From Candidatus Endomicrobium neocapritermitis (GTDB lineage Bacteria > Elusimicrobiota > Endomicrobiia > Endomicrobiales > Endomicrobiaceae), in the NCBI GenBank assembly GCA_009778325.1, contig WRJZ01000041.1, forward strand, positions 1 to 59,736: DNA of 59,736 nt, in the 5' to 3' direction. Within the stretch, counting starts at the first letter, position 1. Every line of letters starts with the position of its first letter. The notes under the pieces were generated by a model. It ran no database searches, had not been told where the DNA came from, and worked only from the letters and a program-made list of their open reading frames with translations. A program made the position numbers and the translations under genes. Positions 6,945 to 48,600 of this stretch are shown here, in pieces.

Positions 6945-7056
6945 AACAAAGTGAAAAGTTCAAATAAAGTATTTCGGCTTCACCGAAATCTACTAATAGA
7001 TTTTCGCAAAGCGAAAATACCAAAATTATTACTTGTTATTTATTAATTATTAACTG
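6945..7056. repeat. Hairpin repeat with core A, downstream of radA
   Basis: Core A (6971-7022) has two small hairpins, ATTTCGGCTTCACCGAAAT and GATTTTCGCAAAGCGAAAAT, joined by CTACTAATA. The right flank has TTATTAATTATTAACTG words that run into the radA stop codon (7050-7052). The left flank is poorly complementary, so this copy looks decayed. The core matches the copies at 11571-11620 and 26768-26816. The rest of 6876-7049 shows no gene. Confidence 0.7.
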
Positions 7057-8423
7057 CCTCTCAAAAATTTTACGGCATTATCCAGGGTTTCCGCGCCGAA
7101 AATTTCGATTTTGCCTTTATATGATAAATTTTTCAGGTTTCCTTTCGGGATTATCGCTTTTTTAAAACCGAGTTTTTCAGCTTCCGCAAGCCTTTCCGAA
7201 GGAAGAGCGACGGAGCGTATTTCTCCGGCAAGCCCGACTTCGCCGAACACTATCATATCTTTCGGACAAACAAATCCCGAGTTTGCCGAAACTATCGCGC
7301 ATGCCGCCGCCAAATCCGCCGAGGTTTCTTTTATTTTTACCCCGCCTGCAATATTGACAAACACATCCTGCATTTCTAACGGCAAATCAAGCCTTTTTTC
7401 TAAAACGGCGATTAGAATTGTCACTCTGTTAGCGTCATATCCGGAAACCATTCTGCGGGGTATTCCGAAATTCGTTCTTGCGGCAAGCGCCTGAACTTCC
7501 AAAAGCAAAGGTCTTGTTCCTTCCATTGAAACGGTAACGATATTTCCCGGAGCATTAACCGTACGTTCGCCCAGAAAAATCAGCGAAGGATTTGAAACCT
7601 CGGTAAGCCCGGAAGCGTTCATTTCAAAAATCCCTATTTCGCTTGTAGGGCCAAAGCGGTTTTTATAAGCCCTTAAAATTCTGTAAATATGCTGTCTTTC
7701 ATTTTCAAAATATAAAACCGTATCTACAATATGTTCCAAAACGCGGGGGCCTGCCAAATCTCCTTCTTTTGTTACGTGACCCAAAAGAAAAACCGTAATA
7801 TTTTTTGATTTTGCTATTCTTAAAAGCTCAGCCGCGCACTCCCTTACCTGCCCGACAGTGCCGGGAGCTCCCGTAAGCTCCGGATGATATGTTGTTTGTA
7901 TGGAATCTATAATTAAAAATTTAGGCTCTATTTTATTGATCGCGTCAATAATATTTTGAAGATTTGTTTCCGAAGCCAGAAATATATTGTCTTTTTTTAC
8001 TTTAAGCCGCTCCGCCCTGGACTTAACCTGCGAAAGCGATTCTTCGCCCGATATATAAAGCGCTGTTCCCGTATCGCTCAAAGCGCCGGAAACGTGAAGC
8101 ATCAAAGTAGATTTTCCTATGCCAGGCGCACCGCCCAACAATATGAGCGAACCCGGCACAACGCCGCCGCCTATCATATTGTCAAACTCTTTAATGCCGG
8201 TAGCATAGCGTTTAAAATCTTTGACGGAAATATCCTGTAATTTTAAAACATCGGAAGAAAAACCGGTAAGCTGCCTTGAAGCCGCGCCGTTTTTTGAAAC
8301 AGCCGTAAATTTTTCTTCGGCAAAACTGTTCCATGCGCCGCAAGAAGGGCATTTGCCAAGCCACTGCGAAGATTCATATCCGCACTGCTGACACAAAAAT
8401 TTAGATTTGATTTTTGATTTCAT
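7050..8423 (-). CDS. radA: DNA repair protein RadA
   Basis: RadA is a RecA-like ATPase that promotes branch migration during recombinational repair. The 457-aa protein has the N-terminal four-Cys zinc finger (C11, C14, C25, C28), the Walker A GGAPGIGKST (97-106), the RadA-specific KNRFG motif near residue 253 and a C-terminal Lon-protease-like domain (about 290-455). Its length is normal. It is followed by a core-A hairpin whose right flank contains its stop codon. The MCE gene lies 51 bp upstream, the gap being filled by half a repeat element. Identification is firm. Confidence 0.97.
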   Translation of the reverse strand: MKSKIKSKFLCQQCGYESSQWLGKCPSCGAWNSFAEEKFTAVSKNGAASRQLTGFSSDVLKLQDISVKDFKRYATGIKEFDNMIGGGVVPGSLILLGGAPGIGKSTLMLHVSGALSDTGTALYISGEESLSQVKSRAERLKVKKDNIFLASETNLQNIIDAINKIEPKFLIIDSIQTTYHPELTGAPGTVGQVRECAAELLRIAKSKNITVFLLGHVTKEGDLAGPRVLEHIVDTVLYFENERQHIYRILRAYKNRFGPTSEIGIFEMNASGLTEVSNPSLIFLGERTVNAPGNIVTVSMEGTRPLLLEVQALAARTNFGIPRRMVSGYDANRVTILIAVLEKRLDLPLEMQDVFVNIAGGVKIKETSADLAAACAIVSANSGFVCPKDMIVFGEVGLAGEIRSVALPSERLAEAEKLGFKKAIIPKGNLKNLSYKGKIEIFGAETLDNAVKFLRGS

Positions 8424-8432
8424 TAAGTCTTT

Positions 8433-8474
8433 TGCCGTTGATTCGTAATTCGTAATTTGTAATTCGTAATTGCC
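8433..8474. repeat. Half hairpin repeat, word ATTCGTAATT
   Basis: The sequence runs GCCGTTGATTCGTAATTC and then three more ATTCGTAATT-like words to AATTGCC. It equals the right arm of the full element at 42535-42620, without a left arm. It fills the gap between the MCE gene stop and the radA start. Confidence 0.75.
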
Positions 8475-9830
8475 TTATTTTGTGGATACCGCGGCTATGC
8501 TTATAATTCCCAGAAGCGCCGCAAGGTCTCTGTCATTTATCTCTATCTTTATATAAGGAGTTAAAGCCGACCTGTAAAGCGTGTCTTCAACCATTACGCC
8601 GGCATACAGCCATTTTGTAAAACCGAAACGCACGCCTAAATCAACTTCCGGCTTGCTGGTAGCACCGGTTCTGCTGATATTATAAACATTTACAAACGCC
8701 TGCAATTTCCTGTAAGGCGCGTAAATAGGTTCAAAGAAAGAATATCCTATTCCGCCGCCGGCTGTACCGCGCATAATTCCGCCGTAAACTTCAAACTTAT
8801 CAAATCTGAAGCCCAGCAAAGCGTCAAGAGTATTCATTGAGTCTTTTTCGTCTTGAGTTTTCGCGTCTTTCGAGTCGGCAACATTGGAAATACCTACGTA
8901 ATAGAATTTTTCCTCGCTCGGCGCAATTTTGATTCCGAGGTCATTTCTGAATTTTTCATCTCTCATATTATATCTGCCGAGATAGTTCCAGCTGAACTGC
9001 AGCTTGTTAGCCCTGCCTATTGTATCTTTCAAACCGTCAAGCGTAACCTTAGCCGAAGCCAAAGCTTCTTTCGCGTTTGTAACGGTCTCTCTAAGCTCCT
9101 GACTCATATCTTCGTCGTTTATAAGCGCGCCCAGCGGACCGTCTCCCTGATAAATTTTTGCGACCATCTTATCCACTTTTTCCGCTATATCTCTCATGTT
9201 GGAAATCGCGTCTCTTATATCCTGCTTATTCTGCGCGGTTATCTGGGCAAGATTGTAAGAAAAGTTATTTATATTATTTATTGAAGAAGTTATTTTCTCG
9301 TTCTGGCCGGCGATATTGTGAAGTATCGATTTTAAGTCCCGCACGGCGTCGGCAAGATTGCCGAACATATTTCCGTTTTTACCGCCGTTTATGTCGTCAA
9401 GAGCCGAACTTATCTTATCCGCGATTCTTGTAAGCGTCTGCTCAAGCGATCCCTCATCGGTGGACGCTATGGTATCGCCGTCTCTGACTCTCGGCAGCGA
9501 AGGGTCTCCGGGATTGATATCTATATACCTTGTTCCTATTATTCCCATGGAAACAATAGCGGCTTTGGCATCCTGATACAAAGCGACATTTTCGTTTATC
9601 GCAAGTCTCAGACGCGCTTTTGACCCCGCGAGCTCAACGTCTTTTAAAACGCCTATGTCAACGCCCGCTATTTTAACTTTTGCTTTTTTCACAAGGCCGG
9701 AAGCATTGTCGAAATAAACATACACGGTATATGTTCTTGCAAGCGAAAAATTACCTACCGCGACTATTGAAGCTAAAACCGCGAAAAGTCCCGCTAATAC
9801 GAAAATTCCAAGTTTAACTTTATTGTTCAT
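8475..9830 (-). CDS. MCE-domain (MlaD-like) protein with C-terminal beta-rich extension
   Basis: This is the substrate-binding periplasmic component of an Mla-type lipid transporter. The 451-aa protein has one N-terminal membrane anchor (residues 5-30) and an MCE domain (about 36-115, with FDNASGLVKKAKVKIAGVDIG). A helical needle-like region follows (120-290). The last 160 residues look like amphipathic beta-strands (KFYYVGIS, LLGFRFDKFEVYGGIMRG, EVDLGVRFGFTKWLYAGVMV). Canonical MlaD is about 180 aa, so this extension could reach or insert into the outer membrane. It sits 2 bp downstream of the ATPase gene and is the last gene of an mlaE-mlaF-mlaD order. The lipid substrate and direction are not shown by sequence. 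Confidence 0.88.
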   Translation of the reverse strand: MNNKVKLGIFVLAGLFAVLASIVAVGNFSLARTYTVYVYFDNASGLVKKAKVKIAGVDIGVLKDVELAGSKARLRLAINENVALYQDAKAAIVSMGIIGTRYIDINPGDPSLPRVRDGDTIASTDEGSLEQTLTRIADKISSALDDINGGKNGNMFGNLADAVRDLKSILHNIAGQNEKITSSINNINNFSYNLAQITAQNKQDIRDAISNMRDIAEKVDKMVAKIYQGDGPLGALINDEDMSQELRETVTNAKEALASAKVTLDGLKDTIGRANKLQFSWNYLGRYNMRDEKFRNDLGIKIAPSEEKFYYVGISNVADSKDAKTQDEKDSMNTLDALLGFRFDKFEVYGGIMRGTAGGGIGYSFFEPIYAPYRKLQAFVNVYNISRTGATSKPEVDLGVRFGFTKWLYAGVMVEDTLYRSALTPYIKIEINDRDLAALLGIISIAAVSTK

Positions 9831-11518: not shown

Positions 11519-11530
11519 AGTTTTTTAAAG

Positions 11531-11650
11531 ACAGTGAGTAGTTATTAGTGAATAGTTAGTAGTAGTTGAATTTCGGCGAAGCCGAAATCTGTTAACAGGT
11601 TTTCGCTATGCGAAAACACCAAAACTACTCACTACTAACTACTCACTGTT
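11531..11650. repeat. Hairpin repeat with core A, word AGTAGTTAGTGA
   Basis: The left arm (11531-11568, ACAGTGAGTAGTTATTAGTG and on) and right arm (11621-11650, CTACTCACTACTAACTACTC ending CACTGT) are nearly perfectly complementary. Between them core A holds TTTCGGCGAAGCCGAAA and GTTTTCGCTATGCGAAAAC, each a perfect hairpin, joined by TCTGTTAACAG. The RNA would fold as a three-way junction. The right arm ends exactly at the alr stop codon. Confidence 0.85.
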
Positions 11651-12814
11651 TTATACAACAATCCTCGGCACCCGCGGCGATATCGCGCACGTAATCTCAT
11701 AATTTATAGTATCCTGTATTTTCGCAAGTTCTTCCGCTTTAATCTGCTCTTTGCCCTGCGCGCCTATCAAAACAACTTCGTCTCCCAGCGAAACGCCTTT
11801 GACTCCGGTAACGTCTATCATTGTCATATCCATTGTAACTCTTCCGGCTATGGGACAGCGTTTTCCGCGCACAAGAACATGCCCTTTATTAGATAAAAGT
11901 CTGTTGTATCCGTCGGCATAACCTACAGGCATTGTGGCTATTACAGAAGCTTTGTTTGTAACATAAGTTCTTCCGTAACTCACGCAGTACCCTGCGGGCA
12001 CTCTTTTCATAAGAATAATTTTTGTTTTCCATGAAAGAACAGGCTTAAGAGTCACAAACCGCTCCGTGTTTCTAAACGGGCTTAAACCGTAAAGACTTAT
12101 CCCCGGACGCACCATATCGAGGTGTGTTTTTTTATTCCTAAACAGCGCTGCTGAATTCGCGGCATGCGCCAAAAATTTTAAGTTATAACTTGTTCTGGCA
12201 TGTTTAACGACTTTAAGAAAAGCGTCCAGCTGCTTTTGAGTAAAAACCGGATCAGTATCCGCAACCGCAAAATGCGTATACATTCCGGTCATTGAAATTT
12301 CCGGAGACATTGCTATTTTCTGCATTAACGTAATCGCCGCTTCCTCAAGAACGCCGGTTCTGCCCATTCCCGTATCCACTTCAAGATGGAAGCTGAGCTT
12401 CTTATCCAGTTTTATCGCCAAATCTTCCAAAGCCATAACGCCGGACATAGTTGAAACCGTAGGTATCAAAGAATGCGCCACCGCAACGTCAAGATTGCTC
12501 AAAGGAAATATGCTGCCAAGCACTAAAATATCGGTTTTGATTCCCGCTTGCCTGAACTGTATCCCTTCTTCAAGCGAAGAGACGCCCACGCAATGCACTC
12601 CTGCGTTCTGCGCCTCTCTTGCAAGCGCAACGCCGCCGTGCCCGTAAGCGTTCGCTTTAATAACCGGCATAATTTTTGTGTCTTTTGCTAAATATGCTTT
12701 GATTTTTTTAAGGTTAAAGTGAAAGTCGCTTTTGTCTACTTCAACCCAGTTTTGGCGGAAAAATACCGGCTGCCTTCTTACGACGGGAATTGCTGAGGGC
12801 GGTTTTGTTTTCAT
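11651..12814 (-). CDS. alr: Alanine racemase
   Basis: This PLP enzyme interconverts L- and D-alanine for peptidoglycan synthesis. The 387-aa protein has the PLP lysine in V-I-K-A-N-A-Y-G-H-G (K53) and a second catalytic Tyr in C-V-S-Y-G-R-T-Y. It also shows the closing motif V-T-M-D-M-T-M-I-D-V-T. The ATG overlaps the dnaB stop codon by four bases (ATGA), so translation is coupled and both belong to the rpsF-to-alr cluster. Downstream it meets the arm of a core-A hairpin. Length and motifs are normal. Confidence 0.96.
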   Translation of the reverse strand: MKTKPPSAIPVVRRQPVFFRQNWVEVDKSDFHFNLKKIKAYLAKDTKIMPVIKANAYGHGGVALAREAQNAGVHCVGVSSLEEGIQFRQAGIKTDILVLGSIFPLSNLDVAVAHSLIPTVSTMSGVMALEDLAIKLDKKLSFHLEVDTGMGRTGVLEEAAITLMQKIAMSPEISMTGMYTHFAVADTDPVFTQKQLDAFLKVVKHARTSYNLKFLAHAANSAALFRNKKTHLDMVRPGISLYGLSPFRNTERFVTLKPVLSWKTKIILMKRVPAGYCVSYGRTYVTNKASVIATMPVGYADGYNRLLSNKGHVLVRGKRCPIAGRVTMDMTMIDVTGVKGVSLGDEVVLIGAQGKEQIKAEELAKIQDTINYEITCAISPRVPRIVV

Positions 12815-16445: not shown

Positions 16446-16853
16446 TTAGTTCCGATTGCTTACAGATGGAAACAGTATCGGAATCAACGTATAGAGGCCA
16501 AGAACGGAATCATCCGAACCGTTTTCAAGCATCTTGCCCACCTTCGCGAAAGGGAATACAGCACTCTTATCATCAAAGCGTATGCCCCACGACCCATCGA
16601 CACAGACCCATTCGCCTCCGAAGTTGCGGATGATGCATTCTCCTAAGAACGAGCCTAACATGTTTATGAGACCATTGCGAATCGCCGGGTCGGCGTCCTT
16701 ATACTGACGTTGGATGAAGCCATCAAGCCAGCGGACGGCCTGTTCGTCGAAATTCAGCTCCTGTCCAAGTTGCTCCCGAGCGATGGAAATGACTTTGTCA
16801 GCATTCGCACGAATAGCTGCAACAATTTCTGAAGAATTCTTTGAAGTGCTCAT
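16446..16853 (-). CDS. Hypothetical protein, possibly DUF3806-like
   Basis: The 135-aa soluble protein has an N-terminal helix-rich part and a conserved-looking block F-D-E-Q-A-V-R-W-L-D-G-F-I-Q-R (35-50). A small-domain core follows (LGECIIRNFGGEWV, DGSWGIRFDDKSAVFPFAKV, 70-110). That pattern recalls small proteins of the DUF3806 kind, but I am not sure. A good ribosome site (GGAGAAAG) precedes the ATG. It is separated from the rpsF promoter by about 110 bp and sits beside small lipoprotein and membrane protein genes. No function can be assigned. Confidence 0.6.
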   Translation of the reverse strand: MSTSKNSSEIVAAIRANADKVISIAREQLGQELNFDEQAVRWLDGFIQRQYKDADPAIRNGLINMLGSFLGECIIRNFGGEWVCVDGSWGIRFDDKSAVFPFAKVGKMLENGSDDSVLGLYTLIPILFPSVSNRN

Positions 16854-16952
16854 TTCTTTCTCCGTATTCTTTGCAGCACGAGCAGAGATGGGTAGTGCGA
16901 AGCGAAACCCATGCTGAAAAACTTATCATTTAACCCGTCTGCGGTACTTTTT

Positions 16953-17282
16953 TTATTTTTCAGCATCCGCGATCAACTGTGCCCACCGTCCCCTTGGCTT
17001 TGGTATCCTACATTTAAAATAATCTCTACCCCTTGTTAATATCCAATGTAGTACCGGATTTTTGACATCATCAAATTCCATCATCGACGGTTGCTGAGGA
17101 GTCTTAAGTTTGTATATAACATCAGGATTGATACGATTCTTACAACAACCTGACAATAATAAAACCGACGTAAAAACTATAACAGCAGGATTTAAACGAT
17201 TATCCGTTTCTGTTTTCTTATAACAACCTGACAAGAATAAAACTGACGTAAAAACTAAAATGAATGAAATTTTTATTTTCAT
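16953..17282 (-). CDS. Small lipoprotein with internally duplicated signal/lipobox
   Basis: Starting at MKIKISFILV the product is 109 aa. It has a lipoprotein signal ending L-S-G-C (VFTSVLFLSGCYKK). About 35 residues later a second near-identical copy (VFTSVLLLSGCCKN) is followed by the same N-P-x-V-I motif. The DNA shows this as a tandem duplication (17120-17257). The remaining 60 residues are basic with no known domain. The ribosome site GAGAGG fits this start better than the ATG nine codons upstream. Which Cys is lipidated is unclear; the first is expected. Confidence 0.65.
   Translation of the reverse strand: MKIKISFILVFTSVLFLSGCYKKTETDNRLNPAVIVFTSVLLLSGCCKNRINPDVIYKLKTPQQPSMMEFDDVKNPVLHWILTRGRDYFKCRIPKPRGRWAQLIADAEK
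17120..17257. repeat. Tandem duplication inside the lipoprotein gene
   Basis: Copy one (17120-17179) and copy two (17183-17257) share ACAACCTGACAA, AATAAAAC, GACGTAAAAACTA and AGGATT blocks in order. Copy two carries an additional 15 bases. High identity suggests a recent event. Confidence 0.7.
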
Positions 17283-17337
17283 AACCTCTCCAATGTTGCT
17301 TTTAAACATGCTCGACGATAACGATAAAAATGAAACT

Positions 17338-17400
17338 CCACGGGCTCACGCCCGTGGTACCTCGGCGGTTTAATGGATTCTGTTCTTCAACGGAATGACA
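17338..17400. repeat. Hairpin plus solo copy of the GIY-YIG-flanking palindrome
   Basis: CCACGGGCTCACGCCCGTGG (17338-17357) is a perfect 8-bp hairpin. At 17371-17400 lies a diverged copy of the 30-bp palindrome that brackets the GIY-YIG gene at 25282-25679. It retains GTCATTCCGTTGAA on the minus strand, followed by AGAATCCATTA, but has no gene beside it. Confidence 0.65.
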
Positions 17401-17431
17401 CAGCCGCAACAGGGTTTTTAGAGAGACATAT

Positions 17432-17827
17432 TTAGTAACCGAGCTGCTTAGCTCTCGTGTACACTTTAACTAATGAATATATTATCCAAAAAATCACAAA
17501 TGGTGTGAGTGTCGTTAACATCCTGGCTTCAACACTAGAACTAGCAGATGCAAAAATTCTCACTGCATAATAAAACCTAAACAAGAAGAAGGTTACTATT
17601 GACGCGCCAATACCTTTTCCGATATCTCCGATGATGATATACCCTAATCCCGGCCAAAATAATGTAAACCACAGCGCTAAAACTCTTCTTACAGATACGG
17701 ATAAGCCTTGATCAAACTTGCCTTCAGCTTCATCGCTCAGCCTCCGCACTGCCAATCTCAGAGCTTCTCTTTCTTTTTTTAACGATTCTAGATTTTCATT
17801 ATTATCTTTTATTTCTTCTGTATTCAT
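17432..17827 (-). CDS. Membrane protein with N-terminal coiled coil (paralogue 1)
   Basis: The 131-aa protein has a charged helix (residues 5-40, likely coiled coil). Hydrophobic segments follow at about 48-68 (RVLALWFTLFWPGLGYIIIG), 72-92 and 108-123. The block FWPGLGYIIIGDIGKGI resembles the P-G-L-G-x-x-Y-x-G motif of TM2-like proteins. The neighbour at 18025-18375 is a clear paralogue with identical stretches (TLFWPGLGYIIIGDI, RAKQLGY). The 3' flanks are also duplicated. Function unknown. Confidence 0.7.
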   Translation of the reverse strand: MNTEEIKDNNENLESLKKEREALRLAVRRLSDEAEGKFDQGLSVSVRRVLALWFTLFWPGLGYIIIGDIGKGIGASIVTFFLFRFYYAVRIFASASSSVEARMLTTLTPFVIFWIIYSLVKVYTRAKQLGY

Positions 17828-17888
17828 TTTTTTTCCTTTTTATATTTGGGTTTATCGAAAAACCCTAAAATACAAGCTTGATCAAAGG

Positions 17889-17998
17889 GTGCTGAACTTG
17901 TTTCAGCATCTCGGAAGTTTACTTCCGTAACTTGTTTCAGCATCTCGTCGTTAAAGACAAAAGACTAGACCCTGAAACGAGTTCAGGGTTGATGACAC
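17889..17998. repeat. Palindromic elements of the CCTGAAC/GTTCAGG type
   Basis: GCTGAACTTGTTTCAGC (17891-17907), CGGAAGTTTACTTCCG and ACCCTGAAACGAGTTCAGGGT (minus or plus, 17969-17989) are three hairpins in a row followed by GATGACAC. This is the same class as 15303-15385. They lie between the two paralogous membrane protein genes. Confidence 0.65.
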
Positions 17999-18024
17999 AT
18001 AAAGGGGTTTTTAGAGACACCCAT

Positions 18025-18375
18025 TTAGTAACCGAGTTGCTTAGCTCTTTTGTTCACTTTAACTAATAAATATATTATCCAAAAAATCAAAAATAGTTCC
18101 ATGGGCGCCCTCTCGGGACCAAATATTCTAATAACCAAGACGGCGGTTACTATTGACGCGGCAATACCTTTTGCGATATCTCCGATGATGATATACCCTA
18201 ATCCCGGCCAAAATAATGTCAGCGCCAGCGCTAAAACTCTTCTTATGGATAAGCCTTGATCAATCGGCTTGCCTTCAATTTCATGACTCAACCGCTGCAC
18301 TTTTAATCTCAGAACTTCTATTTCTTTTTTTAACGATTCTGCATTTTCATTATCTTTTGTTTCTTCTACGCTCAC
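18025..18375 (-). CDS. Membrane protein with N-terminal coiled coil (paralogue 2)
   Basis: The 116-aa protein parallels the gene at 17432-17827: acidic N-terminus, a coiled-coil helix (12-40), then membrane segments with TLFWPGLGYIIIGDIAKGI and a final RAKQLGY. The start is GTG with an AAGGAG ribosome site. Upstream lies a structured RNA with an intrinsic terminator (18454-18702) that ends 78 bases before this start, so the RNA may be its leader. Function unknown. Confidence 0.7.
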   Translation of the reverse strand: MSVEETKDNENAESLKKEIEVLRLKVQRLSHEIEGKPIDQGLSIRRVLALALTLFWPGLGYIIIGDIAKGIAASIVTAVLVIRIFGPERAPMELFLIFWIIYLLVKVNKRAKQLGY

Positions 18376-18761: not shown

Positions 18762-20168
18762 CTATTCTCTGCCTTTAAGATATTCATTCATTCTTTTTGC
18801 GGCCTGCTTACCCATGCCCATAGCCTGGATTACCGTATCTCCGCCTACTATATCGCCGCCGGCAAAGATGCCGGGGATTGAGGTCATATAATTGTCATCT
18901 ATTATAAGGTATCCGTGGTCATCGGTTTTAAGTCCTTCAGTAAGAGAAGGAAGAACGGGATTGGGGTTTAATCCTAAAGCCAAAACCACCATATCGGTTT
19001 CTATTGTAAAATTTGAACCTTCAACTTTTTTTGGACGCCTTCTGCCTGATTCGTCCGGCTCGCCGAGCTCCATCCTTATGCACTCGACAGCCTTAACAAA
19101 CCCTTTTTCATCTCCGATAAATTTAACCGGATTTACAAGGGTTACAAACTCAATGCCTTCTTCTTTGGCGTGAAGCCGTTCTTCTTTTCTGGCAGGCATT
19201 TCATTTTCCGTTCTTCTGTAAACAAGCTTAACGCTTGCGGCTCCAAGCCTTAACGCGGTTCTTGCAGAATCCATTGCCGTGTTTCCACCGCCTACAACGA
19301 CAATATTTTTGCCTTTATAAACAGGCGTATCATAGTTTGGAAAATCAAAAGCGCGCATAAGATTTACGCGCACAAGAAACTCATTAGCCGAATATATATG
19401 ATTTAAATTTTCGCCTTCTATTCCTAAAAATACGGGAAGTCCTGCGCCCGTGCCTACAAAAATCGCTTTAAAGCCTTCTTCAAACAATTCTTTTATTGTT
19501 TTTGTTCTGCCGACAAGCGTATTTAAAACAAACTTTATCCCCAAATCTTTCAAATTATTTATTTCTATATCCAAAACATCTATAGGAAGTCTGAATTCAG
19601 GGATACCGTAACGCAAAACACCGCCGATATCATGCAGCGACTCAAAAACCGTCACATCATACCCCATGTGCGCCAAATCTCCGGCCGCCGTAAGCCCTGC
19701 AGGTCCGGACCCTATAACAGCAACTTTTATATTATTTGTTTTTGTCTTTGTAGTTGATTCGTAATTCGTCATTCGTAATTCGTAATTATCGTTTTTAGCC
19801 GCCCAATCAGCCGAATATCTTTCAAGATTTCCGATTGCGACGCTTTCGCCTTTTTTACCTAAAATGCAGTATTTTTCACACTGGTTTTCCTGAGGGCATA
19901 CGCGGCCGCATACCGCAGGAAGACTATTTTTATGTTTTAAAACTTTTATGGCAGCCGACGGATTATCCGCGGCAAGTTCTTTAATAAATCCCGGAATATC
20001 AATTTCAACGGGACATCCTTCTACGCAAAACGGTTTTTTGCACTGAATGCATCTTTTGGATTCCTCAAGCATTTGTTCGCGGGTGTATCCCGAGTTTACC
20101 TCTTTAAAATCTTTATTTCTTTCGTTGGCGCGCCTTTCCGGCATTTTCACTCTTTGCGGCATTTGCAC
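18762..20168 (-). CDS. nfnB: NfnB/GltD-type NADPH oxidoreductase large subunit with repeat insertion
   Basis: The 468-aa protein has an N-terminal double [4Fe-4S] domain (Cys motifs CIQCKKPFCVEGCP near 40 and CGRVCPQENQCEKYC near 88-101). An FAD-binding GSGPAGL (about 153) and an NAD(P) site GGGNTAMDSARTALRLGA follow. It pairs with the ferredoxin reductase-like subunit, overlapping its stop by 22 bases, as in NfnAB (ferredoxin-dependent NADH:NADP+ bifurcation) or SudAB. Residues about 126-138 (NYELRMTNYEST) are the in-frame translation of an intergenic hairpin word (19741-19791), sitting in the linker between the Fe-S and flavin domains. A shorter start at MPERRANERN would remove the overlap. 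Role: redox balancing; bifurcation is inference. Confidence 0.88.
   Translation of the reverse strand: MQMPQRVKMPERRANERNKDFKEVNSGYTREQMLEESKRCIQCKKPFCVEGCPVEIDIPGFIKELAADNPSAAIKVLKHKNSLPAVCGRVCPQENQCEKYCILGKKGESVAIGNLERYSADWAAKNDNYELRMTNYESTTKTKTNNIKVAVIGSGPAGLTAAGDLAHMGYDVTVFESLHDIGGVLRYGIPEFRLPIDVLDIEINNLKDLGIKFVLNTLVGRTKTIKELFEEGFKAIFVGTGAGLPVFLGIEGENLNHIYSANEFLVRVNLMRAFDFPNYDTPVYKGKNIVVVGGGNTAMDSARTALRLGAASVKLVYRRTENEMPARKEERLHAKEEGIEFVTLVNPVKFIGDEKGFVKAVECIRMELGEPDESGRRRPKKVEGSNFTIETDMVVLALGLNPNPVLPSLTEGLKTDDHGYLIIDDNYMTSIPGIFAGGDIVGGDTVIQAMGMGKQAAKRMNEYLKGRE
19741..19791. repeat. Half hairpin repeat read in frame inside nfnB
   Basis: TTTGTCTTTGTAGTTGATTC is followed by four ATTCGTAATT-like words, matching the right half of the element at 42535-42620 and that at 8433-8474. 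It is translated on the minus strand without a frameshift, in a linker of NfnB. Confidence 0.85.
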
Positions 20169-20992
20169 TCCGGACTATGTTCAAAATTATTTAATGAAAC
20201 TTTTTCCAAGTCCCTGAAAAGCGCGAGTCTTGAAATAAGCTCTTCCCAATTGACTTTATGAGCGTCAAACTCAGGCCCCTCAACGCAAGCAAATCTTGTT
20301 TTTCCGTCAACAGTCACTCTGCATGCGCCGCACATTCCCGTTCCGTCAACCATGATCGGGTTTAGAGAAACAAGCGTTTTAATATTTTTTTCTTTTGTAA
20401 GATTGGAAACCGCTCTCATCATCGGGACAGGACCTATGGCATAAACTATATTTACGTTCTCTTTGCTCATAACATTTTTTAAAACATCCGTCACAAGCCC
20501 TTTTGTTCCGTAAGAACCATCGTCGGTAGCGAAAAGAAGTTCGTCGCAAACCTCTTTCAGCTCTTTTTCAAGAATAACCAAATCTTTATTTCTAGCCCCG
20601 ACAACCGCGACAACTCTGTTCCCGGCTTTTTTCAAAGCCGCAATAACAGGCAAAACCTCTGCCGTGCCGACTCCGCCGGCAACAGCGACGACAGTTCCGT
20701 ATTTTTTTATTTCGGTAGGGTGTCCGAGCGGGCCGACAAAATCTTTTATAGAATCGCCGGCATTTAACATTCCGAGCTTAAAAGTCGTTTTTCCCGCTTC
20801 CTGAAAAATTACGCGCACCAAACCTTTTTCACAGTCCGTGCCCGCGACCGTCAAAGGAATTCTTTCTCCTTCCTCATCAATTCTGAGCATGACAAACTGT
20901 CCGGCCTTAGCGTTTTTCGCTACTTCAGGAGCTTCGAGCCAAAAACTTTTCACGTTTTGCCCAAGAATTTCTTTTAAAACTATTTTAAACAT
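20147..20992 (-). CDS. nfnA: NfnA/SudB-type ferredoxin-NADP reductase subunit
   Basis: Starting at MFKIVLKEIL the product is 281 aa. It contains the FAD-binding region of ferredoxin reductases (AGQFVMLRIDEEGERIPLTVAG), a nucleotide-binding VAVAGGVGTAEVLPV and a C-terminal [2Fe-2S] Cys cluster (GTGMCGACRVTV ... C). This is the PyrK/NfnA layout. It precedes and overlaps nfnB, so the two subunits are co-translated. Together they likely couple NADH and ferredoxin oxidation to NADP+ reduction in a fermentative cell. The longer upstream frame has no ribosome site of its own. Confidence 0.88.
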   Translation of the reverse strand: MFKIVLKEILGQNVKSFWLEAPEVAKNAKAGQFVMLRIDEEGERIPLTVAGTDCEKGLVRVIFQEAGKTTFKLGMLNAGDSIKDFVGPLGHPTEIKKYGTVVAVAGGVGTAEVLPVIAALKKAGNRVVAVVGARNKDLVILEKELKEVCDELLFATDDGSYGTKGLVTDVLKNVMSKENVNIVYAIGPVPMMRAVSNLTKEKNIKTLVSLNPIMVDGTGMCGACRVTVDGKTRFACVEGPEFDAHKVNWEELISRLALFRDLEKVSLNNFEHSPECKCRKE

Positions 20993-21054
20993 TTTACGGT
21001 CATCTTCCTTTTGATTTAAATAAATTGGATAATTATAACATTTTAATATGGCAA

Positions 21055-21103
21055 GTGACAATTAAAAAATTAACAGTTAATAATTTTAGTTGTTAATTGA
21101 CAT
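21055..21103. repeat. Hairpin repeat, word AATTAAC, at the LPP20-like gene 3' end
   Basis: GGCAAGTGACAATTAAAAAA, TTAACAGTTAATAATT and GTTGTTAATTGACAT form an imperfect hairpin. The LPP20-like stop codon (21086-21088) is inside, so the last residues (I-N-N) come from the word. Similar words lie at 7026-7056 and 39293-39340. Confidence 0.6.
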
Positions 21104-25266: not shown

Positions 25267-25281
25267 TTTTCCAAACCGCCA

Positions 25282-25679
25282 TTTTGTCATCCCGTTGAAA
25301 AACGGGATCCATTTTAAATTATAAAAACGTCTTTCTCCGTAAAATCATCCCAATTCGGATTACTTCGTTCTATTAACTCTATTTTCCAAATACGCTTCCA
25401 TTCCTTAAGCATTTTTTCTCTATGGATAGCCTCATTTACTTCACTATAACTTTCATAATACACAAGTTTATCTAACGAATATTTTTTTGAGAAACCGTCT
25501 ATCATCTTATTTTTATGTTCTTGCATCCGTCTTACAATATCGTCTGTAACGCCTATATATAATGTCCCTCTGGGTTTATTCGTAATAATATACACATAGT
25601 ATTGTTTGCTCATTTTATAACTTGGATATCGACTTTAACAACAAAAACGTGGATCCCGTTTTTCAACGGGATGACAAAA
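25282..25679. mobile_element. GIY-YIG gene bracketed by perfect 30-bp inverted repeats
   Basis: Positions 25282-25311 and 25650-25679 are exact reverse complements over 30 bases. Each copy is itself a palindrome (ATCCCGTT-gaa-AAACGGGAT) next to GTC. The single gene inside fills almost the whole unit of 398 bp. A diverged solo copy exists at 17371-17400. This is consistent with a small mobile or RAYT-like domesticated unit. No target duplication is visible. Confidence 0.65.
25314..25613 (-). CDS. Standalone GIY-YIG nuclease domain protein
   Basis: The 99-aa protein matches the single-domain GIY-YIG family (YhbQ/COG2827-like). It has Y-Y-V-Y-I-I-T-N near the start, [10 protein letters not shown]-x-R-R (residues 17-29, the GIY-YIG catalytic loop, here Y-V-Y and Y-I-G), and later E-A-I-x-R-E-K-x-L-K-E-W-K. 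The catalytic Arg and Glu are present. Such proteins often occur in several copies per genome. The stop is three bases from the left inverted repeat, and the start is 36 bases from the right one. The role may be DNA processing of its own flanks. Confidence 0.85.
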
Positions 25680-25693
25680 TAAATTGCCCTTAA

Positions 25694-26728: not shown

Positions 26729-26850
26729 CAGAGTGAAGAGTGAAAAGTGAGGAGTGGAGATATTGAGTTTCGGCGAAACCGAAACCTATTACAGGTTTTC
26801 GCATAGCGAAAACACCTTATCTTCACTCTCCACTCTTAACTCTTCACTCT
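26729..26850. repeat. Hairpin repeat with core A, word GAGTGAAGAGTGA
   Basis: The left arm (26729-26760) reads AGAGTGAAGAGTGAAAAGTG, AGGAGTGGAGA. The right arm (26817-26850) is TTATCTTCACTCTCCACTCT and on, and ends at the U32 gene stop codon. Core A (26768-26816) has TTTCGGCGAAACCGAAA and GTTTTCGCATAGCGAAAAC. The layout is identical to 11531-11650 with different arm words. Confidence 0.85.
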
Positions 26851-36546: not shown

Positions 36547-36586
36547 AGCAGTAACAACTATTTCTGACTTTCAGAATATCTTTGCC

Positions 36587-36669
36587 GTCATTGCGAGGCA
36601 CGAAGCAATCTAGATAATAAAATTGCCGTTTCCTTTAACCTTTTGGATTGCTTCGTGCCTCGCAATGAC
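36587..36669. repeat. GTCATTGCGAG palindrome
   Basis: Left arm 36587-36611 and right arm 36645-36669 match over 24 of 25 bases (GTCATTGCGAGGCACGAAGC outermost). The centre holds ATAATAAAATTGCCGTTTCC, like the element at 14779-14956. Confidence 0.85.
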
Positions 36670-36772
36670 ACCAAAAACAGCTCTCATCGCTTCACTTGGA
36701 TTAACGGCACCCTCACAGCTAAAGTTTTTTGGTACCACAGCGCCACTAGTACTACCAGTGGTTTTATATATA

Positions 36773-38205: not shown

Positions 38206-38474
38206 CAGATGCGGAAAGGCACGGCAACAACTTTTTACTTCAGATGCAGGGATGCGGAGATGCGGGGAGGCAGGGTAACAGCTTTTACTTCGGATGCAGG
38301 GATGCAGAGATGCGGGGAGGCAGGGTAACAGCTTTTACTTCAGATGCAGGGATGCAGAGAGGCGGAGATGTAGGGTAACAGCGAAAAAATAAATTTTCTT
38401 TGTACCTATTTGTATCTTTTTCACATTTGTCGTGGTCTTTACTCCGCATCTCTGCATCCCTGCATCTCTGCCTC
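38206..38474. repeat. Hairpin repeat, word GATGCAGG, with triplicated left arm
   Basis: Three direct units of exactly 50 bases lie at 38231-38280, 38281-38330 and 38331-38380. Each starts near GCTTTTACTTC and contains GATGCAGGGATGC, GAGATGCGGGGAGG and CAGGGTAACA. A single right arm CCGCATCTCTGCATCC, CTGCATCTCTGCCTC (about 38440-38474) faces them. Words match the element at 2004-2117. No spacer-like unique sequence lies between units, so it is not CRISPR. This fills most of the 518-bp gap before gpmA. Confidence 0.8.
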
Positions 38475-38482
38475 ATTTTTTT

Positions 38483-41534: not shown

Positions 41535-41645
41535 AACTGCAGAAGTTCAGAAGCTCGGAAGTTCGGCAGCTCGGTAACGGCAACAACAAATCTTTTGTCT
41601 TTGCTGAGCTGCTGAGCTTCCGAACTTCCGAGCTTCTGCCGTTCT
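41535..41645. repeat. Hairpin repeat with core B, word GAAGCTCGGAAGTTCGG
   Basis: The left arm starts GCAGAAGTTCAGAAGCTCGG and the right arm ends TTCCGAGCTTCTGCCGTT. Core B is TAACGGCAACAACAAATCTT, TTGTCTTTGCTGAGC. It lies between the tRNA promoter and the nfo promoter. Confidence 0.85.
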
Positions 41646-41687: not shown

Positions 41688-42533
41688 ATGATAAGATTCG
41701 GAATTCATGCGTCTTTAAGAAACGGATTTAACAGCGCCATAGAGCAGGCTTTGGATGCCGGCTGCGAGGCTATGCAGATTTTTACAAAAAGCCCGAGAAT
41801 ATGGAACAGCGCAGTATATTCGCAAAAAGATATTTTGTCTTTTCATTATGCGCTCAAAGCGTCAAAACTCTCGCCGCTGATAGTTCACACTTTTTATTTG
41901 CAGAATTTGGCGACGTCCAATGAAGAACTTTATAAAAAATCTTTCGACGCTTTTGAAAAAGACCTGCTTCTTGCAGATAAAATAGGCGCGAAATACTATG
42001 TAATACATCCCGGATCATATTCCGAATCATCAAACATTGATGAAGGAATCAAAAGAATCACGGATTCAATAAATAAAATTTATTCAAAAAATAATATAAA
42101 AACCGTTTTGCTGCTGGAAAATCTTGCGGGAGAAGGCAGAAAAATCGGTTCGACTTTTGAAGAACTCTCGAAAATAATATCACAAGCCAAAAGTAAATCA
42201 AAAATAGCCGTATGTTTTGACACCGCTCACGCTTTTGGAGCAGGATATGATTTATCCAACCCTAAAAAAACAGATTTAATGCTTAAAGATTTTGACAAAA
42301 TAATAGGGCTTAATAAGATGAAAGTTATACATTTCAACGATTCAAAGATGGCTTTGGCGTCAAAAAGGGACAGGCATGAACACCTCGGGAAAGGCATGAT
42401 AGGAGAGAAAGGGCTCAGACATTTTGTTCAATCCGTAAAAGAAATAGCCGACGCCGGCATAATAGAAACGCCTAAAGATCCGGAAAATTCGGATAAAATA
42501 AATCTTAAAAAACTTTTCAGATGGAGAAGTTAA
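41688..42533 (+). CDS. nfo: Deoxyribonuclease IV (endonuclease IV)
   Basis: Endonuclease IV cuts DNA at abasic sites in base excision repair. From MIRFGIHASLRNGFNSAI it is 281 aa, the normal length. Zinc-binding blocks are visible: V-H-T-F-Y-L-Q, Y-V-I-H-P-G-S, L-L-L-E-N-L-A-G-E-G, C-F-D-T-A-H-A-F-G-A-G, H-F-N-D-S-K and D-R-H-E-H-L-G-K-G. No ribosome site precedes the ATG, which fits the leaderless promoter. The longer frame upstream would run through the promoter. Confidence 0.95.
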   Translation: MIRFGIHASLRNGFNSAIEQALDAGCEAMQIFTKSPRIWNSAVYSQKDILSFHYALKASKLSPLIVHTFYLQNLATSNEELYKKSFDAFEKDLLLADKIGAKYYVIHPGSYSESSNIDEGIKRITDSINKIYSKNNIKTVLLLENLAGEGRKIGSTFEELSKIISQAKSKSKIAVCFDTAHAFGAGYDLSNPKKTDLMLKDFDKIIGLNKMKVIHFNDSKMALASKRDRHEHLGKGMIGEKGLRHFVQSVKEIADAGIIETPKDPENSDKINLKKLFRWRS

Positions 42534-42534
42534 A

Positions 42535-42620
42535 AAGGCAATTACGAATTACGAATCAACAACGAAAGGCTTTTTGGTCTTTTTATTCGTAATTCGTCAT
42601 TCGTAATTCGTAATTGCCGT
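42535..42620. repeat. Full hairpin repeat, word ATTCGTAATT
   Basis: Left arm GGCAATTACGAATTACGAAT, core CAACAACGAAAGGCTTTTTG and GTCTTTTT, right arm ATTCGTAATTCGTCATTCGT, ending AATTGCCGTT. It separates convergent nfo and the giant gene. The half copies at 8433 and 19741 match its right arm. Confidence 0.85.
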
Positions 42621-42624
42621 TCTA

Positions 42625-45600
42625 TTATTCCACAAATATTTCTACTCTTCTGTTGTTTGCTCTTCCTGCCGGCGTTTTGTTTGTGTCTATCGGCATTGTG
42701 TGCCCAAATCCTACGTATTGCATCTTCTCCGGATTTATTCCGTGTTTTGCAAGCTCGTCAAACACCACCCTGGCTCTTTCTTTTGACAGCCTTTTATTCA
42801 ACTGCGCGCTGCCGGTTGAATCCGTATGGCCCTCTATCGTTATTTTTGTGAACGTATATCCGCTTATCTTTTCCGCAAGCTGTCTTATATTCGCTTTTGA
42901 CTCGTCGGTCAGTTCGGACGAACCAAGTTTAAAAGTCGCCGCGTTTAAGCTGAACGACTGAACCGCAGGCTGTTTTCTTCTTGCTTCGGCTTCCTCAAGC
43001 TCTTTTTGAAGTTCCTCTTTTTCCCGCTCAAGCCTTGCTATCTCGGCTTTTTCTTTTTCCAGCTTATGTTTCATCTCTAAACTTCTTTTCTCCGCTTCAA
43101 GCCTTTCTTTTTCCTCTTGTTCGGCAGCTCTCTTTTTTTCCATCTCAATCATTTCGGCTTGAAGTTTTCTTTCCATTTCCATTTTCTCTTGCAATGCTTG
43201 AGCGTTTCTTTCTTTTTCAAGTCTTTCGCTGTCTTCCACCTTTATCTCGGCTATCGGGGATTTCGTCGGCACGGCTACAAAGCTTTCTTTTTGCGCCGCT
43301 TTACCGGATTTACCGAAACTGTAATTTAACCCTAAACCGACAAAGTATCCGGTGTTATTAAAATTCGTATTAAGCGAAGTTGAGAATTGTTCGGTTATAG
43401 CGTACTCGGCACCCGCGCTTATTCCCGCTATGAACGCAGGCATTTCAGCGCTCCAGATCTCCATTGTTACTTCATCCAATGAATTTACGAACGAGGCTTC
43501 AAGCGTGTTTTTATTGCCTATAATATTGTATCCGAAATTCGCTTTGGCATACCAGTTTAGTCTGCTTACTTCATCCGCTACGCCTGCTCCGAACAGCCAT
43601 GCAGCCTTCATATAAGAAGCGGCTTTTATTTTAAGATCTGCCGCTCCTCCGCCGGTTTCTTCAATCTCGCCGCTGTTTACCATGCCCATCTGCAAGCCCG
43701 TAAAAGGTTTCAAATTAATTTTATCGGTCAGCGTAATCGCGTATTCGCCCTGAACGTCCGCTTTAAAGCTCATTGAATTAAAATTCGACTGCGTTTTCGT
43801 TCCGTAAAATTTAATGTCCCTTTCAGCGTCGTAACTCTGTATGCCGCCGCTTAAATCCGCCTGAACGCTTATATTGTTATCAAACCACTTTCCGCCGTAA
43901 ACGCCGAAGCTTATGTCGGACATGCTTCCCGAATCATAACGCTGTTCAAGAGAGTTTGAAGCGTATCCGAAATACGCGCCGGCAACAAGATTTTCTTTCG
44001 TATACAAGTCCGCGCCTAACTGCATTCCGAAACCGCTCGAAATAAATTCCCCGACTGAATTTTCGTCACCTGGAAAACTATAATTATTCACATACACCTG
44101 GGTCCAGATAGATTTGCCTATTTTGCCGTCGTCGTCAAAACCGCGTTTTTTAATTCTGGCGAAAAGTTTGTCGGCCGCATTATACGACAAAGGCACGGTA
44201 ACGGCATTGGCGTAGAAAGAACCGTGAAGCTGGTTAAACGCTTCTCTGACTTGCGGCGGAGTTGAAATATCGAGCATATCTATCATATCCCACATATCGT
44301 TTATAAAAATCGCTTCGTACGCTATGGCGTCCAAAGCTTTTGCGACTTCGCTCTGATTATGCGATAATCCGCTTATACGGCTAAAATGAGTGTCTCTGGT
44401 AACCATCAAATACAAATCTTTCCAGAAACCGCTTTCATAGCCCGTATAATTTAATCCCCACTGATAACCTACCGGCAAATATTCCGAAGGAGGCTCTATA
44501 GGCTGATTGGCAAATATACCCGTGCTTCCGCCGTCACTTTCTATAAGAAGTATGCTTGTCTCGGTGCTTGCTACTATTCTGCTGTAAATATTTAAAATAA
44601 GTTCGCTTGTATCGTTTATTACGACTTTTCCGTTAAAACCGGTTGCCGAGCTTACGCGAATAAGGTCTGCTATTCCTATAAGCCGATTATCCGGATCGCT
44701 CAGATCCCTGTATTCCAAATTCACGTCGAGCGCGAGTTTTCCGTCTATGGTTAAGCTTCCGAAATTGCTTACCTGCGCCGCGGTTCCGCTTTGAACGGAG
44801 TAAATTCCGTTTGCGCCTATATGCATATTGCCTATGGTAACGTTGACATTGTCTATAACATTGACTGCTCCGTTGAGAATATTAAGCGTCCCGGCATAAT
44901 TATATACCCCGCTGCTTTCAAAATTCAAAGCGCCGGTTCCGGTTTTATCTATAACGCTGCGATAGTCATCGCCGGATATTCCGCCGTTAAGCGTTATATT
45001 TGATGCCGCGTTCAATTCAAGCCTGCTGTTATAGCCGGTCAAATAAACGTCGTTGTTGCCGGAAGAATCCGTATTGCCGGCAAAAACCATATCGTTATAT
45101 AATGCGTTAATTCCTACATAAGCGTTTGCGCCTACAGCTATAGCTCCGCCGTTTGATGCCGTATTGCTTGTGAAAATAACATCTGTAAATGTCACTGAAC
45201 TTCTTCCGGAAACGTACGCCGCTCCTCCCAGACCTGTCGCCGAGTTATTTGCGAAAGTTGAGTTTGAAACAGCGCCGACAGCAGGGCTGCCGAAATTACC
45301 CGATACCGACAATGCGCCGCCGTTGGCTGTATTATTAAATAAGAACTCGGCATTGCTGATTGTCAGCAATGAACTGTTGGCGTAAATCGCGCCGCCGTTC
45401 ATGCTTGCGGTATTAGATGAAAATACGGCATTGGTTATGTTTATGGTTGAATCGCTTGCAGCATATATCGCGCCGCCCGACGTTGAACTGTTGCCGGAGA
45501 TACTTGCGCCGTCTATTAACAGCTGCGAACCGGACATATACACAAATCCGCCTGAACTTGCAGCAATATTATTGTCTGCGACTAAATAAGTTCCGCTGAA

Positions 45601-48600
45601 ATCCGCAGCCGAATTATTTGTCAAATATATTGCCCCACCCGCTACAGTTGCGCTGCTGTTTGTTATCGTTGTGGTTGACGCGGTAAATACGAAATCGGTT
45701 TTATTGCCGTAAAGTATCCCGCCGTAATTTGCCGTGTTGCTTGTGAAAACCACATTGTTAAACGTTATAATGCCCGCGTTATCCGCGTACATAAATCCGC
45801 CCGCATTTGCCGTATTTCCTACAGCTTCTATATACGTATTGCTGAAATCCGCTTTTTGAACATTGGCAATGTAAATCGCTCCGCCGGAACTTACTGCAGT
45901 ATTTCCGTCAAACGTCAGCGTGCTGCCGGCAACATTTAACAATGAATTGTCAATATAAAGAGCGCCGCCGTAATCCGCGGTATTAGTTGAAAATACAACA
46001 TTTCCGCTGATTGTCAGCGTTGAACCGCTTACCGCGTATATTGCTCCGCCTGCCGTCGGGTCATTATTGCTTATAAAAGCATCGCCTATTATTATTTCCG
46101 AATTTGACGAATATATTACTCCGCCGTATTGCGAATCATTGCCTGTGGCAGTCAAATATGTCTGGCTGAAATCCGCTACCGAGTTATTTGTTAAATATAT
46201 CGCTCCGCCAGCTACAGCCGCGCTGCTGTTTGTTATTGTTGTGGTTGCCGCGGTAAATACGAAATCGGTTTTATTGCCGTAAAGTATCCCGCCGTAATTT
46301 GCCGTATTGCTTGTGAAAACCACATTATTAAACGTTACAATGCCCGCGTTATCTGCATACATAAATCCGCCCGCATTCGCTTTATTTACGACAGCTTCTA
46401 TATACGTATTTCTGAAATCCGCTTTTTGAACATTGGCAATGTAAACCGCTCCGCCCGAACTTGTTGCCGTATTTCCGTTAAACGTCAGTGTGCTGCCGGC
46501 AACATTTAACAATGAACCGTCAACATAAAGCGCTCCGCCGGAAGCTAAACTTCCTGTCGCAGTATTAGTTGAAAATACCGCGTTTCCGCTGATTGTCAGC
46601 GTTGAACCGCTTACCGCGTATATTGCTCCGCCTTTTGCAGACCTTCCATTGCTTATGCTTGCGTTATCAATTAACAGCTGCGAACCGGACATATATACAA
46701 ATCCTCCGGAACTTGCCGCTATATTATTGTTTGCAGCTAAATAAGTTCCGCTAAAATCCGCTGCCGAGTTATTTGTCAAATATATTGCTCCGCCGGCTAC
46801 AGCCGCGCTGCTGTTTGTTATCGTTGTGGTTGCCGCAGTAAATACGAAATCGGTTTTATTGCCGTAAAGTATCGCGCCGTAATTTGCCGTGTTGCTTGTG
46901 AAAACTGCATTGTTAAACGTTACAATGCCCGCGTTATCCGCGTACATAAATCCGCCCGCATTCGCTTTATTTCCTACAGCTTCTATATACGTATTTCTGA
47001 AATCCGCGTTTTGAACATTTGCAATGTAAATCGCTCCGCCGGAACTTGTTGCAGTATTCCCGTTAAATGTCAGCGTGCTGCCGGCAACATTTAACAATGA
47101 ACCGTCAATATAAAGCGCGCCGCCGGAAGCTAAGCTTCCAGCCGCAGTATTAGTTGAAAATACCGCTTTTCCGCTGATTGTCAGCGTTGAACCGCTTACC
47201 GCGTATATTGCTCCGCCGGACGTCGGGTCATTATTGCTTATAAAAGCGTTGCCTATTATTATTTCCGAATTTGACGAATAGATTACTCCGCCGTATTGCG
47301 CATTATTGCCTGTGGCAGTCAAGTATGTCCGGCTGAAATCCGCCTTTGCTCCGTTTGTCAACGCTATGGCTCCGCCATTTGAAGCCGCGCTGTTGGAATT
47401 GAACGATGTTGTTGCCGCAGTAAACTCAAACGCTGTTCCAGCGCCGTATAATACGCCTCCGTTACCCGCAGCGTTATTCGTAAAATTCACTTCGCCGAAT
47501 ATCACTTTGGACGTATCCGTATATAAGAAACCGCCTGCCCCGCCCGCGTTATTTCCTACCGCGCTTATAAAAGCGTTGCTGAAATCTACTTCTCCGCTGT
47601 TCGTTATATACATCGCTCCGCCGGAACTTCTCGCGATGTTAGCGTTAAACGTCAACGTGCTGCCGTTTACAAAATTCATATACGAATTGTTCAAATATAT
47701 TGCGCCGCCGGAAGCTAAGCTTCCTGTTGCCGTATTTAATGAAAATACCGCATTATCAGTGAATGTCAAAGTCGAATTGTTGCCGGCATATATTGCTCCG
47801 CCATACGTGGAACTGCCGGCGGATATTGTCGCGCTGCCTAATATAATTTCCGAATTATTTAAATAAGCAAAACCTCCGCTTGTTCCTGCAGTATTTCCGG
47901 TTGCCGTAACATTCGCGGTTGTAAAATCTGCTATGGAGCCGCTTGTCAATGCTATTGCTCCGCCGGAAACCGACGCGCTGCTGCGGACAAAATTCGTATT
48001 GTCGGTAAACACATATTCCACAGACTGTCCGTACAATGTTCCGCCGGACTGCGCCGTATTGCTTGTAAAATTCACGCTGCCGAACGTCACTATTCCGCTG
48101 TCGGCAAACATAAATCCGCCGGCATAAGCAGAATTGTTATAAGCGTTAATATACGCGCCTGACAAATCTACGCCTGCATTGTTGTTTGTTATATACATAG
48201 CTCCGCCGGAGCTTCTCGCTACGTTAGCATTAAAAGTCAAAGCGCTGCCGGTTGCAAAATTCAGATACGAATTGTCAGAATATATTGCTCCGCCGGAAGC
48301 ATTTGCAGTATTTAATGAGAACGCCGTATCATTTACAGTGAACGTCACTGTTGAATTGTTGCCCGCATATATTGCTCCGCCATATGCGGAACTGCTCCCG
48401 GATATTGTCGCGCTGCCTAGTATAATTTCCGAATTATCCAAATAAACAAATCCTCCGCTTGTTCCAGCCGTATTTCCGGCGGCGTCAAGAATTGTATTTG
48501 TAAAGTCGATAACTGCATTGTTTGTCAATGCTATGGCTCCGCCGGAGGTGTCGGCTTTGTTTGAAATAAATGTCGCGCTGCCGAAACTTATTGACGAGGC

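Follow-up and report, generated by a model that had tools for sequence, protein, structure and literature searches.

An in-frame heptamer-word repeat in the NfnB linker of an Endomicrobium genome, a probable tolerated copy of a dispersed family

The only NfnB gene in the genome of Candidatus Endomicrobium neocapritermitis (G000) carries, in frame and between its two domains, one unit of a short word repeat that is dispersed over the genome. We have analysed a window of 59,736 nt (contig WRJZ01000041.1), together with the rest of the genome and the relatives of the host, which belong to Endomicrobia/Elusimicrobiota. The repeat is likely to be non-autonomous, with whole units having been copied to new places, and the NfnB copy is likely tolerated as a disordered protein segment.

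The NfnB gene and its linker

The following features of the locus are referred to below.

18762–20168, minus strand: NfnB/GltA-like flavoprotein gene, 468 aa, GTG start (profile search and Foldseek)
20147–21061, minus strand: NfnA-like partner gene, adjoining NfnB (NF004862 family, 410 bits)
19741–19791, minus strand: whole insert region as delimited by the initial annotation, with degraded unit ends (compared with consensus ends)
19757–19787, minus strand: 31-nt word unit AATTACGAATTACGAATGACGAATTACGAAT (gene sense), read as NYELRMTNYES (sequence reading)
19749–19784, minus strand: NfnB residues 129–140, repeat peptide, the sole segment with pLDDT below 50 (AlphaFold2)

The gene product scored 569 bits with the TIGR01316 profile (cut-off 472), and its closest PDB relatives are NfnB/NfnI large subunits, with a Foldseek TM-score of 0.89 between the AlphaFold2 model and NfnI (5jca_L). 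The initial annotation had placed the word in frame in the linker that joins the Fe-S domain to the flavin domain, and the peptide NDNYELRMTNYESTTK is indeed found there within the 468-aa reading frame. Both domains are intact around it, as had also been proposed: Fer4_20 covers residues 17–126 and Pyr_redox_2 residues 148–453. The unit itself, AATTACGAATTACGAATGACGAATTACGAAT, is an exact match to the commonest genomic 31-mer, and the degraded ends consist of AACGAT before the unit (consensus AACGGC) and CAACTACAAAGAC after it (consensus CAACGGCAAAGAC). The hairpin label that this copy had been given does not apply, as it is a single arm and positions 19741–19791 fold no better than shuffles (z −0.8), in contrast to the full element at 42531–42624 (z −6.4).

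The AlphaFold2 model (38 sequences) has a mean pLDDT of 86, and a longer disordered hinge is the predicted outcome of the insert. Omega is 0.054 against the orthologue of G001 (contig WRNH01000059.1, Endomicrobia bacterium Th196P4bin33), which also has an insert, indicating purifying selection; the protein is presumably made and active.

Among 60 relatives, G002 and G004 from the same genus, as well as G018, have ordinary NfnB linkers with no word, and the word is also missing from the aligned distant homologues. The linker of G002 and G004 is unrelated and 6 residues shorter, and both genomes lack the repeat family, so that within the genus the NfnB insert and the family go together. In G001 an altered form of the word (NYKLQITNYKS) occupies the same place and is followed by more repeat-derived sequence; despite this insert the frame is open over 508 codons, and none of the four words is the same in G000 (TACGA) as in G001 (TACAA/TATAA). 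Composite in-frame inserts, in which a single loop holds two or three different repeat families in series, were noted both in this G001 gene (L061) and in PyrK of the same genome (L240). The residues of the G000 insert, whose presence at this place in distant NfnB homologues had been named as evidence against insertion, were not found in these; three Omnitrophota and one Clostridiales have other words instead.

The earlier view of an insertion is supported, with one correction. There was no clean addition: no exact empty site for NfnB was found among the relatives, the linker being also changed around the unit. As it is only 6 residues longer than in G002 and G004, the word, about 31 nt long, took the place of a stretch of the previous linker.

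An artefact of repeat misassembly, or a gene on its way to becoming a pseudogene, is hardly credible as the source of this arrangement. The assembly is a draft of 54 contigs with 4.4% contamination, but the two halves of NfnB match a single orthologue and share an open frame, the gene is syntenic with G001, G002 and G004, and similar inserts exist in G001. Decay is opposed by the single-copy state of the genes and by omega values of about 0.05–0.13.

Word units in other conserved genes

In-gene copies were collected by peptide search and reading of ORFs, and were then aligned with orthologues. We have identified the unit in frame in five more conserved genes (four in G000 and one in G001), and every one of the five aligned genes has orthologous sites without the word. 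The radical SAM protein (TIGR03960) reads KKEA[KKGNYELRITNYESTAKG]KGLDFN, compared with KKEA-RGLDFN (or KGLDFN) in empty homologues; the insert adds exactly 54 nt and is absent from six homologues (G001, G002, G004, G009, G010 and G018). The insert of valyl-tRNA synthetase (ValS) is common to G000 and G001, and G002, G004, G010 and G018 are without it. For the ketosynthase and PyrK the unit is confined to G000, and for IspE to G001; other repeat-like inserts lie in the same loops of G001 PyrK and G018 IspE. The PyrK copy comprises three words and is devoid of AACGGC ends. Altogether, the in-gene copies use all three open frames of the open strand.

The genes for NfnB, ValS and the radical SAM protein are each single-copy, and omega values (0.089 for ValS against G001, with the insert in both; 0.11–0.13 for radical SAM) lie at 0.04–0.13 overall. 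From these two facts, it is very probable that the proteins in use are those with the insert.

The insert shared by the two ValS genes differs at 1 of 45 nt, whereas other 45-nt windows of the pair average 8.9 differences. Simple descent after one insertion explains neither this near-identity nor the divergence of all words in NfnB. Another process has to be invoked, and either conversion from dispersed copies or repeated insertion at one site could give both patterns. Visual inspection showed direct repeats at two sites, those of radical SAM (AAAGGGC) and ValS (AACGGC, which is also present in the empty ValS of G018), and none at the NfnB, PyrK and ketosynthase sites. Together, the direct repeats and the motif in the empty G018 gene are a hint of a target motif.

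Two kinds of word-bearing gene ends were also observed. Two similar genes (L160:9425-11020 and 16628-18265) have ORF N-termini apparently built from the word (MRKLQITNYELRING), and a TrpB-like ORF (TIGR00263; L162:5566-6819) has its C-terminus extended by the word peptide.

The repeat family and its spread

Three further elements of the window are considered here.

8441–8471, minus strand: intergenic single-arm copy between a radA-like gene (7050–8423, minus) and an mlaD-like gene (8475–9830, minus), both by inspection
42531–42624, no strand assigned: full inverted-arm element (hairpin), from folding compared with shuffles (z −6.4)
26730–26850, no strand assigned: hairpin of a different word (GAGTGAA), absent from this site in G001 (sequence and folding)

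In the window, ATTCGTAATTCGTAATT gave 11 matches at no more than three mismatches, with 0.6 expected (sites 8441, 19757 and 42540/42585, plus one weak). The copies at 8441 and 42531–42624 bear out the claim that the same word element lies between genes near 8433 and 42535. The spacer at 8441 has no ATTCGTA word in G001, G002, G004 and G018, and its DNA is different in each relative, hence none of them offers a clean empty site. The full element occupies precisely the gap where the stops of two genes converge, one nfo-like for endonuclease IV (by inspection) and the other for a giant OmpA-domain protein; no relative was found with both flanks. That protein is encoded by a single ORF of 5678 aa (42625–59661, minus strand) with GGA-I/L-Y type repeats in the style of polymorphic outer membrane proteins and an OmpA-like C-terminus.

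A pattern search of the whole genome retrieved 290 + 290 matches (580) at no more than two mismatches, against 2–3 each (5) for the reversed control, and the total is about 240 arrays; the genome-wide counts are based on pattern searches and on a biased sample of 332 kb, chosen at word sites, in which 63 arrays were read for anatomy. The unit consists of four heptamers plus AAT, and its commonest length, exactly 31 nt, was found in 39 of the 63 sampled arrays. On the left it is mostly bounded by AACGGC, and on the right by CAACGGC or CAAAGAC. Of the 44 elements sampled, 19 are inverted pairs, in which two arrays no more than 250 nt apart point towards each other with a relative orientation that never varies; the outer ends of these pairs are mostly AACGGC/GCCGTT. 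The other 25 elements are single arms. The variants are tied to position: G at base 4 occurs in word 3 of 26 of 41 units, as compared with 2 of 123 other words (p = 1.6e-17), and changes at base 7 cluster in words 1 and 2. Since such variants are common to unlinked copies, whole units were copied rather than grown by local slippage.

Replication slippage, by which a heptamer would have arisen and expanded within the flexible linker with no movement between loci, is an unlikely source of the copy in the window, and we give it a small share of the probability overall. A period of 7 is typical of bacterial slippage repeats (Mrazek, as cited in PMC4679880), the words in the NfnB linkers of Omnitrophota and Clostridiales are lineage-specific and occur once each in the 6–13 kb fetched, and the cyanobacterial, Bernardetia and viral copies are plain tandems. 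However, the G000 unit has a fixed length, conserved ends and position-specific variants in dozens of unlinked copies, and NfnB carries the commonest 31-mer unchanged. Copying of whole units accordingly remains the reading we prefer for this genome, whereas slippage in place may account for the linker words outside Elusimicrobiota.

Stops occur in every frame of the ATTCGTA strand, while all three frames of the ATTACGA strand are free of them. About 85% of the window is coding, yet the sampled arrays lie almost exclusively between genes or at gene ends, which fits the expectation if survivors within genes are filtered. A scan of the phylum (295 genomes) detected the word family in G000, G001 and G003 and in another genus of the family (G023, G028 and G031), with single sites in two more genomes and 0 matches for the reversed control; none was found in G002 or G004.

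On the favoured reading, the unit exists as single arms or as facing, hairpin-forming pairs, with about 240 copies spread as whole units, possibly by transposition or templated repair, and AACGGC-like motifs may be the preferred target. A unit landing in a gene would close all frames if read from the ATTCGTA strand and leave them open on the ATTACGA strand; where the net change in length is a multiple of three, the gene would be read through, and selection would retain the few copies that lie in flexible loops. In NfnB the unit would have taken the place of part of the Fe-S/flavin linker and be translated, with both domains undisturbed. As for the initial statement that the repeats are mobile, presence and absence at orthologous sites and whole-unit copying make mobility probable. 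Y1_Tnp (RAYT) genes number three in G000, two in G001 and one in G018. The presence of such a candidate mobiliser does not track the words: it is found in G018, which lacks them, and none was found in the word-bearing G003 (70% complete). Just one of the Y1 loci read has an adjacent word hairpin; this RAYT-like gene (L264, G000:C47:75497) has a full one directly upstream, and another (L261) is without it.

Other word families with 7- and 8-nt periods (GATGCAGG, AGTGAGTAGTT, GAGAAGCTG, GAGTGAA and AGAAGCTCGG) are present in the window at 2004–2118, 11528–11652, 14198, 26730–26850, 28880, 38243–38481 and 41541–41645; many form inverted-arm hairpins, several with AACGGC-like ends. A perfect 31-nt inverted repeat (GTCATCCCGTTGAAAAACGGGATCCA; 25281–25680) encloses about 340 nt that resemble, on inspection, a small GIY-YIG-type ORF, and the counterpart in G001 has word repeats instead. 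The palindrome GTCATTGCGAGGCACGAAGCAATC at 36581–36675 is of a type found in many bacterial genomes.

Period-7 arrays in NfnB linkers also exist beyond the genus. At a threshold of at least 17 of 21 matches, 7 of 100 distinct linkers from fetched loci contain such arrays, with different words: G000, G001 and G014 (the last with CTCAATT, read as NSQFSTLNSKL) in Elusimicrobiota, L095 (ACTACGA), L116 (CAGTTGT) and L123 (AACCGAC) in Omnitrophota and L127 (GGACTCA) in Clostridiales. In all seven, the periodicity is above that of 2000 codon shuffles and of 2000 base shuffles, and at the same threshold other lags gave 0 arrays (lags 4–6, 8 and 10–12) or one (lag 9). Words are present in 6 of 7 linkers of at least 46 residues (span IG..GPAG) and in 1 of 93 shorter ones (Fisher 4e-8, indicative only, since this is a convenience sample of best matches with related species counted separately, and the choice of lag and threshold was made with the data in view).

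Selection of linker words for a role in the protein, e.g., tuning of Fe-S/flavin hinge motion, is very improbable. It could draw on the recurrence of words in NfnB linkers of several phyla and on the nearly unchanged ValS insert of G000 and G001, but words and peptides are wholly different between lineages, 93 of 100 linkers have none, and inserts are also found in unrelated proteins; moreover, the ValS near-identity is at the DNA level with genomic copies, which conversion fits better. A broader form of the copying view is a tentative idea, to which we give less than even weight: heptamer words might be a general class of copied DNA that enters the same permissive protein sites repeatedly, the NfnB linker being a natural trap that has taken up different words independently in each of Elusimicrobiota, Omnitrophota and Clostridiales, with in-gene words kept uniform by conversion from dispersed copies.

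Comparison with known repeat systems

We would class the element as a heptamer repeat with a fixed unit, tolerated within conserved enzymes; it acts like a Rickettsia palindromic element (RPE) and is not one. RPEs lie in frame in conserved genes, and the RPE of gmk was shown to be translated with the enzyme active (PMC2229807; PMC10969869). Like RPEs, the present units are small and dispersed, occur in frame in conserved genes whose orthologues are empty, and should be tolerated according to prediction. RPEs, however, are stem-loops of 105–146 bp from Rickettsia, whereas here a 31-nt heptamer arm (about 45 nt with ends) is found in genes of Elusimicrobiota; size, fold (z −0.8) and host set it apart, and membership was rejected. 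The parallel drawn by the initial annotation therefore holds for the mode of action, with five more genes carrying an in-frame unit, but the word 'palindromic' is unfit for the in-gene copies.

TAACTGA heptamer repeats of Beggiatoaceae, Cyanobacteria and Bacteroidetes are likewise dispersed and mostly intergenic, with some in ORFs, and mobility is suspected (MacGregor 2015, PMC4679880). They share the property that one orientation has stops in all frames and the other is open. Their word is another one, and where they lie in ORFs they mostly affect the ends of proteins or hypothetical ones, whereas the units described here, with fixed 31-nt length and ends, lie inside single-copy conserved enzymes with orthologous empty sites.

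Cyanobacterial STRR/long heptanucleotide repeats are also tandem 7-nt words, and the heptamer AATTACG exists in plasmids of Nostoc, Tolypothrix, Dolichospermum, Planktothrix and Bernardetia. Unlike the G000 units, the cyanobacterial copies that were read are plain tandems without AACGGC ends or register-specific variants. Assignment to the STRR/LSSR simple repeats was rejected: these vary in copy number by slippage and have no fixed unit, while 39 of 63 arrays are exactly 31 nt with position-specific variants.

MITEs and REP/BIME-type families (ERIC, YAPL, Correia) are similar as non-autonomous dispersed repeats with intergenic hairpin forms, and in-frame fusions are known for several (PMC2229807). 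Here, the arms are heptamer or octamer words, and the sites examined gave neither a consistent target-site duplication nor TA ends nor a GTAG-type REP tag. In the open-licence literature, we found no description of the element under NYELRITNYE or as an Endomicrobium repeat.

Selfish repeats in frame have mainly been discussed for Rickettsia, where they were termed a unique feature. The same outcome is now seen in an unrelated phylum with a far shorter unit, affecting a bifurcating-type enzyme as well as the sole valyl-tRNA synthetase. With clean empty sites, and with NfnB as a common host protein the linker of which can be scanned across thousands of genomes, both the spread of heptamer words and the protein sites that accept them are open to direct tests.
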